Positions 43,316 through 45,692 of a DNA stretch of 45,692 nt are shown here, piece after piece. The position numbers were made by a program, and so were the translations under genes. The first letter of the stretch is position 1, and every line of letters begins with the position of its first letter. A model generated the notes under the pieces. The model was not told the origin of the DNA. It saw only the letters and a program-made list of their open reading frames with translations, and did no database searches. Source of the stretch: Flavobacteriaceae bacterium (lineage in GTDB: Bacteria; Bacteroidota; Bacteroidia; Flavobacteriales; Weeksellaceae); assembly GCA_030529185.1 (NCBI GenBank), contig JAUMXI010000003.1, forward strand, positions 57,659 to 103,350, in the 5' to 3' direction.

Positions 43316-43400
43316 AAAGTCCTATAATTTATATTAAGTTAATAACCAGCTTATTAGTTTAACAAATGTAAGAAATTAAAAAATAATATGCAAAAAAATA

Positions 43401-43445
43401 TACAAATATTTCACAGATATATGATATTTTTTTCTTATATTTGTA
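43401..43445. promoter_or_regulatory. Promoter with a 9-bp inverted repeat upstream of the TA genes
   Basis: TACAAATAT (43401-43409) and ATATTTGTA (43437-43445) are perfect inverted repeats 27 bases apart. The right arm overlaps the -7 box TATATTTG (43436-43443), so a protein bound there would block transcription. Confidence 0.5.
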
Positions 43446-43462
43446 GAGTAAAACAATACAAT

Positions 43463-43813
43463 ATGATGTTATCAGTAGTAAGTCAATACATAGATATAGT
43501 AAATAATCTGAACTATATCATAGATGAAAGCCCCTATAAGTCTAAATATATTATAGATAAAATGGGAATGAAAGCATCTACATTTTATAAGAAAGCAAGA
43601 GAAAAGAAATTTACCCCAGAGGAAGTATTATCATTAGCTAAAATAATAGATGTAGATATAGAACAGAAAGCTAATGAAAAAGCAATGGTTCTGAAAGGAC
43701 TAGAAGAGATAGAAAGGGGAGAGGTAATAGACCATAGTGAAATAATGGCAAAAGCAAATAAAAGACTAGAAGAATGGAAACGAAATGGTCGAAGACCGCA
43801 GAACATCAATTAG
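43463..43813 (+). CDS. Antitoxin of a type II toxin-antitoxin pair
   Basis: A 116-residue protein placed just before a RelE/ParE toxin. Residues about 20-65 (KSKYIIDKMGMKASTFYKKA and EEVLSLAKII) look like an HTH DNA-binding domain. The C-terminal stretch GLEEIERGEVIDHSEIMAKANKRLEEW resembles the toxin-binding tails of RelB-like antitoxins. The ATG at 43463 is preferred to 43388, because a -7 box at 43436 lies between them. The gene overlaps the toxin start by 40 bases, a coupling typical of TA pairs. Codon use is rich in ATA and AGA. Confidence 0.75.
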   Translation: MMLSVVSQYIDIVNNLNYIIDESPYKSKYIIDKMGMKASTFYKKAREKKFTPEEVLSLAKIIDVDIEQKANEKAMVLKGLEEIERGEVIDHSEIMAKANKRLEEWKRNGRRPQNIN

Positions 43814-44085
43814 AAGAAGCGGAAATATACATTGATGAAAATTTTTCTTATAATGAAGTGGAGCATTTGTATATGGAGATAGAAAGAACGCTAGATTTAA
43901 TAGCTAAGGGGATTGTTATTCATCAGAACTATGAAGATATAGAAGGGCTAAAAAAGGTAATAGTAGCCAAATATAATACGATGGTATATAGGAGAACAGA
44001 GAAAAGAATAGAAATAATAGCTTTTTTGAATAATAGAAAATCACCAGAAGAAAACTATAAAAGTGTAAAAGAAGACCGCATATAG
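43774..44085 (+). CDS. RelE/ParE family toxin
   Basis: A 103-residue basic protein of the RelE/ParE fold. It starts METKWSKTAEHQLEEAEIYID, with helices followed by the beta sheet VIVAKYNTMVYRRTEKRIEIIAFLNNRKSPE, whose end matches the family I..I.D.R..P pattern. RelE members cleave mRNA on the ribosome and ParE members poison gyrase; which applies here cannot be told. It lies 40 bases inside the antitoxin gene, and its stop codon lies in the terminator loop. Confidence 0.82.
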   Translation: METKWSKTAEHQLEEAEIYIDENFSYNEVEHLYMEIERTLDLIAKGIVIHQNYEDIEGLKKVIVAKYNTMVYRRTEKRIEIIAFLNNRKSPEENYKSVKEDRI

Positions 44086-44129: not shown

Positions 44130-44933
44130 TTAGTTATTATAATAGAAGTTATGACCTTGATAGCCTAAACCTCTATCGGACATATCTATTTTATAGTGAG
44201 GATATGCTTTATCATCTTCATTTTTAAACACTAAATAAGCATATTTTGCATTATTAAAAGTATTAGGAGTAGGATTAGTAGGAGTAGATTGTGTAATGAA
44301 CTGGATAAATATTTTCTTACCTACTGGGAAAGATTTTTTAACTTCTGACTCTATATTAAAAGTAGAAAGAACCTTACCATTTTTACCCTGTTTATGATTA
44401 ATATTTAAAACCATAGTAGGATAAATCCCATTAAATACACCACTATCAAAGCCTAAATTATGATTACCTCCTCTAACTTGATTTTGAGCAGCAGTAATTT
44501 TAGCATTATCCGTAGTATCATCATTAAAGACAAATACACGAGCATAAGTGACAGGCTTAAATAACTTTCTAGAATCAGTGCCATAGAACCAAAAATGAAC
44601 TGCTTTTTTCTTCACTTTATTAGAAGTATTAAGAGTTGTTAAATCTCCTGTATCCATAGTATTTTTAGACAATAATAATTTATCAAAATGACTATTGGAA
44701 GTATTAGGATTTTCTACTAATGGAGCTTCATCTCCTTGTCCCTCTTTACAAGTAGTCCTAATAAGAACTCCCCAAGGATTAACAGTATCATTAGTATTAT
44801 AGACCTTATCACATAAACTAGCTAATACAGGTTTATTAATAGGTTTATCCTCTTCCATACTTAAAGATGAATTAGCTCTTTTACAACTAATAGCTACTAA
44901 TGCTAAACTTAATAAACATACTATTTTTTTCAT
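44130..44933 (-). CDS. Lipoprotein of unknown function
   Basis: A 267-residue protein with a lipoprotein signal (MKKIVCLLSLALVAISCKRA; Cys 17). The mature part starts with a Ser/Asn-rich linker and continues as a beta-rich domain (HFWFYGTDSRKLFKPVTYARVFVF and FIQFITQSTP). I do not recognise the family. It should sit in the outer membrane or on the surface. The AT-rich ATA/AGA codon use and its position between a TA pair and a SLOG gene suggest accessory DNA. Confidence 0.7.
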   Translation of the reverse strand: MKKIVCLLSLALVAISCKRANSSLSMEEDKPINKPVLASLCDKVYNTNDTVNPWGVLIRTTCKEGQGDEAPLVENPNTSNSHFDKLLLSKNTMDTGDLTTLNTSNKVKKKAVHFWFYGTDSRKLFKPVTYARVFVFNDDTTDNAKITAAQNQVRGGNHNLGFDSGVFNGIYPTMVLNINHKQGKNGKVLSTFNIESEVKKSFPVGKKIFIQFITQSTPTNPTPNTFNNAKYAYLVFKNEDDKAYPHYKIDMSDRGLGYQGHNFYYNN

Positions 44934-45048
44934 AATATAAAAATTTAAAAATTAATATACGCAACTATTATAAACACTTCAAAATTAAATAATTATAAAA
45001 TAAAATCAAAGAAAATTTTTAAGAAAAAATTTAAAATTATAGGGGATT

Positions 45049-45124
45049 GTAAGGGGGGACAAAATTGTGATTTTGTCGCATAAAAAAAATACCAAAAAGG
45101 CGACAAAATCCTGTCCCTCCTTAC
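45049..45124. repeat. Long imperfect inverted repeat with GACAAAAT motifs
   Basis: The left arm (45049-45079, starting GTAAGGGGGGACA and ending GATTTTGTCGC) pairs with the right arm (45100-45124, GCGACAAAATC then TGTCCCTCCTTAC) over about 24 bp, leaving a seven-base bulge in the left arm. Inside the left arm GACAAAAT (45058-45065) can instead pair with ATTTTGTC (45070-45077), so two folds compete. Confidence 0.75.
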
Positions 45125-45147
45125 CTGCTGAATTGATAAAAAACCGC

Positions 45148-45168
45148 AAAAAAGCCCCCAAAGGGGCT
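45148..45168 (-). terminator. Intrinsic terminator downstream of the SLOG gene
   Basis: On the minus strand AGCCCC pairs with GGGGCT, followed by TTTTTT. The T run exists only on this strand, so the structured element before it ends the SLOG transcript. Confidence 0.8.
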
Positions 45169-45186
45169 AACTTACCTAACGAAACT

Positions 45187-45240
45187 GTGTAGGCTGGCAA
45201 CCTTCGCCCCGTGAAACGGGGTAGGGGAGATAGCCTATAC
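45187..45240 (-). ncRNA. Predicted structured 3' element of the SLOG transcript
   Basis: On the minus strand GTATAGGCT (45240-45232) pairs with AGCCTACAC (45195-45187) over 9 bp. The inner part holds CCCCG pairing with CGGGG around a five-base loop and a CCTT/GGGG-type helix. It forms a long irregular stem-loop of 54 nt. The SLOG stop codon TAG (45237-45235) lies in the first arm. It may be a 3' UTR stability element, a processed small RNA or the hairpin end of a mobile element. The family is not recognised. Confidence 0.45.
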
Positions 45241-45609
45241 AGGAGTGTTTTTTAAAAAATGATAAACCTTAGTAGGGATGCCCTTTTGCTTAGAAATATA
45301 AAGCATATGAGCAGTGCCAAGGCTCTTGCCATCGTGAAAGCCAAAACAGGCATTGGCATTTTTTAACATCCAACGATTTCTAATAGGACCTGCTGATTTT
45401 CCAAATTTTCCCCAAAAAGCAGGAAATATTTGGCATTTTATGCCATTTTTCTCTGCATACTGTATTACAAGTTTATCAGTGCCATTTGCACCACCAGAGA
45501 ATAGGCAAATTTCAGACTTATTGAAATCTTTGAGGTAATCCTCTAACACAGTTGAAAAAGTGGCAAAATCCGTAAAATAACGGCTACCACAAACAATAAT
45601 ATTTGTCAT
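45235..45609 (-). CDS. SLOG/DUF2493 family nucleotide-binding protein
   Basis: A 124-residue Rossmann-like protein of the YspA/DUF2493 group of the SLOG superfamily. It starts MTNIIVCGSRYFTD (GSRxF, residues 8-12) and has the phosphate-binding loop SGGANGTD (38-45) and the GPIRNRWM motif (74-81), then GTAHM near residue 98. SLOG proteins bind nucleotides or their derivatives and are frequent in phages, plasmids and conjugative elements. The ATG at 45609 is preferred to one at 45657, which would add a hydrophobic stretch not seen in the family. Its context suggests a mobile or defence-related locus. Confidence 0.82.
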   Translation of the reverse strand: MTNIIVCGSRYFTDFATFSTVLEDYLKDFNKSEICLFSGGANGTDKLVIQYAEKNGIKCQIFPAFWGKFGKSAGPIRNRWMLKNANACFGFHDGKSLGTAHMLYISKQKGIPTKVYHFLKNTPV

Positions 45610-45692
45610 AGTAGTAAAAGAATTTAATTTTATAGTATAAAGATACGAAAAAAACATGATATAAACAACTGAAAATCAATAAAATAATGTTA

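Follow-up and report, generated by a model that had tools for sequence, protein, structure and literature searches.

At the end of a gene for a SLOG protein, the window (the whole stretch of DNA analysed, 45,692 nt) carries a stem-loop of 58 nt (45185-45242) that ranks first among its 60-nt folds on the plus strand and fifth on the minus strand. The structure is real, beyond what chance produces, and combines a strong hairpin with an ordinary position. Most likely it is an ordinary lineage-specific 3' boundary structure rather than an established regulatory RNA. Specifically, we propose, with a probability of roughly 45%, that SLOG is transcribed as a monocistronic mRNA and that the stem-loop is its structured, lineage-specific 3' end.

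Both strands were considered, by folding and by a count of G·U pairs. Positions 45184-45243 fold at -36.9 kcal/mol (z -6.6) on the plus strand and at -24.8 kcal/mol (z -3.4) on the minus strand, the sense strand of SLOG; on either strand none of 200 dinucleotide shuffles folded as well. A further 391 kb of this genome, cut into 97,520 segments of 60 nt, contained no fold that reached -36.9 kcal/mol and 16 that reached -24.8 kcal/mol. The GC content of about 57%, versus 34.5% for the window, bears out the sequence-only reading of a GC-rich element in AT-rich surroundings. The predicted plus-strand fold consists of an outer stem of 12 continuous base pairs, two of them G·U (45185-45196/45231-45242), a purine-rich 4x4 internal loop, GCAA/GAGA (45197-45200/45227-45230), an inner stem of 4 bp (45201-45204/45223-45226), a one-base bulge (45205) and an apical stem of 7 bp (45206-45212/45216-45222). 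On the minus strand the closing stem is not the clean 9 bp that had been described, since an A·C mismatch (45238/45189) divides it into 4 bp and 6 bp, and the inner pairing is loose.

The SLOG gene (45235-45609, minus strand; PF10686, PHROG 289) encodes 124 residues from a start codon picked by alignment with homologues, and its product scores 45 bits against PF10686 (YAcAr), for which the curated cut-off is 28.2. It thus is a member of the YspA/YAcAr SLOG proteins (PF10686, DUF2493), found in phages, plasmids and bacteria, and the relatives compared lack the element behind the gene. In jumbo phages, YAcAr SLOG domains have been described as domains that use NAD+ or are predicted to do so (PMC7824862). 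The TAG stop codon (45237-45235, minus strand) lies inside the first minus-strand arm of the stem-loop, exactly where the sequence-only reading had placed it, albeit with a length of 54 nt for the element. On this strand the stop codon is followed by the stem-loop, which runs from 45242 to 45185, and then by a terminator, AGCCCC-TTTG-GGGGCT plus T-run, identified by a terminator scan at 45168-45148. Its sequence, AGCCCCTTTGGGGGCTTTTTT, has the GC-rich hairpin (-11.7 kcal/mol) and the directly following T-run of an intrinsic terminator, and it lies on the same strand as SLOG, as had been noted before. The 58-nt stem-loop itself does not have the make-up of an intrinsic terminator on either strand, and the terminator scan gave no match there; on the minus strand it is followed by GTTTCG-type sequence with no immediate T-run. 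Upstream of SLOG, a pattern scan revealed a Bacteroidetes-type promoter-like site, TTG-N20-TATCTTTA (45638-45668, minus strand), the core of which is found again elsewhere in the genome; the Bacteroidetes promoter consensus has TAnnTTTG at -7 (PMC7366714). Only 83 bases separate the SLOG start codon from the end of the contig at 45692, and the 5' context beyond lies off the contig.

Since the element sits between the SLOG stop codon and the terminator, with a promoter-like site in front of the gene, the SLOG mRNA should carry it. Transcription would start at the -33/-7 site (45668-45638), presumed active, and the transcript would contain SLOG and, from the stop codon onwards, the GC-rich stem-loop, ending at the intrinsic terminator, which is evident as sequence and presumably functional. 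The earlier statement that the element is transcribed, made from the terminator, is in this way made plausible by the two signals that flank it on the SLOG strand, albeit by inference. Stem-loop and terminator together may form a boundary that limits readthrough into the next gene, and may slow down 3'-to-5' exonucleases. Hairpins at 3' ends generally have a role as boundaries and in mRNA stability. The next gene (44130-44933, minus strand) encodes a predicted lipoprotein-like protein of 267 residues, for which no protein family was matched, and has a good Bacteroidetes-type promoter-like site of its own in the pattern scan (TTG-N19-TAATTTTG, 45009-44980), consistent with a transcription boundary between both genes. 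Moreover, most SLOG copies in the family have a hairpin right after the stop codon, as a plain terminator, so that a hairpin in this position is nothing out of the ordinary except for its size. The arrangement resembles that of intrinsic terminators with an upstream 3'-UTR hairpin, in having a GC-rich hairpin with a T-tract (45168-45148) and a second stable hairpin upstream, but differs in that this hairpin is far stronger than is usual in the genome and that the stop codon forms part of its arm. A separate regulatory RNA is not needed to explain the stem-loop. Points against this explanation are the strand on which the element folds best, and the presence of a hairpin in addition to the terminator, which is left unaccounted for as one terminator would suffice.

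The plus-strand fold is better by 12 kcal/mol than that of the minus strand. Its four G·U pairs (45189/45238, 45196/45231, 45203/45224 and 45206/45222) all turn into A·C on the other strand, where the fold contains no G·U pair at all. Given no strand preference, all four would favour the same strand with a two-sided probability of 1/8, and the asymmetry is a hint at the strand, short of proof. Folding of the whole 221-nt stretch gives z -8.2 on the plus strand and -5.7 on the minus strand. Should the element be an RNA structure under selection, its better plus-strand fold argues against the strand to which it had been assigned. By this asymmetry, the main rival explanation is a structured plus-strand RNA of about 100-220 nt, either an intergenic sRNA or an antisense RNA, with the stem-loop as its 3' domain; it would overlap the last SLOG bases on the other strand and possibly pair with the 3' end of the SLOG mRNA. 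We consider this possible, though distinctly less probable than an mRNA 3' end, as the plus strand ahead of the element lacked any Bacteroidetes-type promoter-like site in the pattern scan, GAGTG separates the stem from TTTTTT so that no good plus-strand terminator follows, the G·U bias has the chance level given above, the neighbouring hairpin at 45049-45124 is neutral by G·U count, and no homologue was found in the family or order genomes searched. Such a transcript would overlap the SLOG 3' end in the manner of convergent transcripts with overlapping 3' ends (PMC7821165), but neither a convergent gene nor a promoter-like site was found on the plus strand at 44940-45185. That the element forms the 3' domain of an undescribed structured plus-strand RNA, about 200 nt long, which is antisense to the end of SLOG and has so far been seen in a single genome, seems to us quite unlikely. 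A strong 3' boundary hairpin would in itself matter little. If, on the other hand, the strand bias reflects a real plus-strand RNA, this would be a structured RNA without relatives that overlaps the end of a SLOG gene of phage type, and one would first ask whether it controls that gene; a strong fold beside an interesting gene is weak evidence for a regulatory RNA when it has no homologues.

Searches for relatives characterize the stem-loop as an orphan sequence. Rfam searches of the stem-loop region, at the gathering score and at E-values up to 5, gave no relevant family; the sole match near it was a chance one to SpF51 (21.2 of 50 bits, 45149-45188). In the genome itself, neither the stem-loop nor the hairpin at 45049-45124 was found a second time, and blastn against phage and plasmid records identified no DNA similar to the region. 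Two models, R1 for the minus strand (323 family and 398 order genomes) and R2 for the plus strand (104 nt; 322 family genomes), found the window's own locus only, in a genome set in which this genome is the single representative of its genus. One weak covariance-model match (25 bits, in genome G087) proved to be a plain AT-rich hairpin and not a relative. A DNA search of the family had its commonest matches (E about 1e-3) inside an NtrC-type coding gene, in an 'ELIKNR' stretch, and the remainder were short; degenerate-pattern matches in IMG/VR and GTDB, none of which had the flanking stem, were attributed to chance. No homologue was found in which compensatory changes could be counted. The lack of homologues and of a second copy is as expected for a fast-evolving 3' UTR.

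The SLOG protein has relatives of up to about 46% identity. They were found in 19 of the 323 family genomes, including this one (the weakest matches were short and were left out of the flank comparison), in 800 phage records, in 25 plasmids and, by an alignment-based search, in 414 viral loci, of which the best 80 were used for comparison of flanks; a peptide-pattern search of GTDB and IMG/VR for close relatives gave none. The absence of the stem beside other copies of the gene had been named beforehand as a refutation of the RNA role suggested there. Behind SLOG, the stem-loop is absent at all loci compared, namely 15 family copies, 6 phage or plasmid copies and the best 80 of the 414 viral loci, and thus does not behave as an element belonging to SLOG genes. 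Among these 80 viral loci, two weak matches to R2 are located upstream of SLOG, not behind it. Several annotated phage copies are part of tight operons, in which the next gene starts within a few bases. Given these distant relatives, the stem-loop may be of recent origin in this lineage. The same comparison bears on the suggestion, made in the sequence-only reading, of an sRNA processed from the 3' part of the SLOG transcript or of an RNA partner that the protein binds. The location between stop codon and terminator would suit such an RNA, and candidate UTR-derived sRNAs are known in Bacteroides thetaiotaomicron (PMC7366714), which share with the element a 3'-UTR location and the use of the parental mRNA's terminator, but the element lacks conservation or a recognised sequence relation. 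With the stem missing at the other SLOG copies, a weaker fold on the SLOG strand and no known Rfam family matched, the suggestion has found no positive support, and we regard it as very improbable.

Between SLOG and the lipoprotein-like gene lies a second, long imperfect hairpin of 76 nt (45049-45124), considered on both strands, which folds at -35.4 kcal/mol (z -7.4) on the plus strand, has one G·U pair per strand and therefore no strand preference, and contains the inner palindrome GACAAAATTGTGATTTTGTC. In family genome L063 a hairpin resembling it has GCGACAAAATCGCAATTTCGTCGC within a longer stem, and in L065 GGGGATTGTAAGGGGGG resembles its left flank. The presence of three adjacent inverted repeats within 200 bp, at a contig end and beside a phage-type gene, with a high GC content versus the AT-rich chromosome, would fit a cluster of palindromes at the DNA level, either REP-like or left over from a mobile element, for which the RNA fold would be incidental. 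The similar GACAAAAT...ATTTTGTC hairpin of L063 is in line with this. However, neither the stem-loop nor the long hairpin has a second genomic copy, relatives show few matches to the inner palindrome, with 3 mismatches, and neither a transposase nor a target-site duplication was seen beside the element. We consider such a cluster unlikely, and slightly less probable than a plus-strand RNA.

Several known elements were considered and rejected. A retron msr-msd, considered for the short stem-loops before the long hairpin on the minus strand, would need a reverse transcriptase gene, of which there is none alongside. A SAM-I riboswitch, considered for the GGCAACC on the plus strand, has neither an Rfam match nor a downstream gene on that strand. 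An integron attC site, whose hairpin is flanked by RYYYAAC and GTTRRRY boxes, could be suspected from ACCTAAC at 45175-45181, but GTTRRRY is lacking on the other side. A displaced 6S RNA (RF01685, 6S-Flavo) was discarded, as the best match of the genome is elsewhere.

Other observations concern the surrounding DNA and the rest of the genome. At 43388-44085 on the plus strand there are two overlapping small ORFs of 141 and 103 residues which by eye resemble an HTH antitoxin and a RelE-like toxin; searches of Pfam, PHROG and NCBIfam at E 0.001 gave no match for them, and a terminator-like GACCGC...GCGGTCTTTTT follows them. The strongest fold in the 391-kb sample (-33.3 kcal/mol) is formed by ACGGGAGCGTTC repeats on the minus strand at about position 10405 of contig C85, in a genome that is otherwise AT-rich. 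The best 6S-Flavo match lies on the same contig (C85:24954-25058, minus strand); with 52 bits it falls short of the Rfam gathering score (85), and it may be a 6S RNA that has diverged in this lineage.
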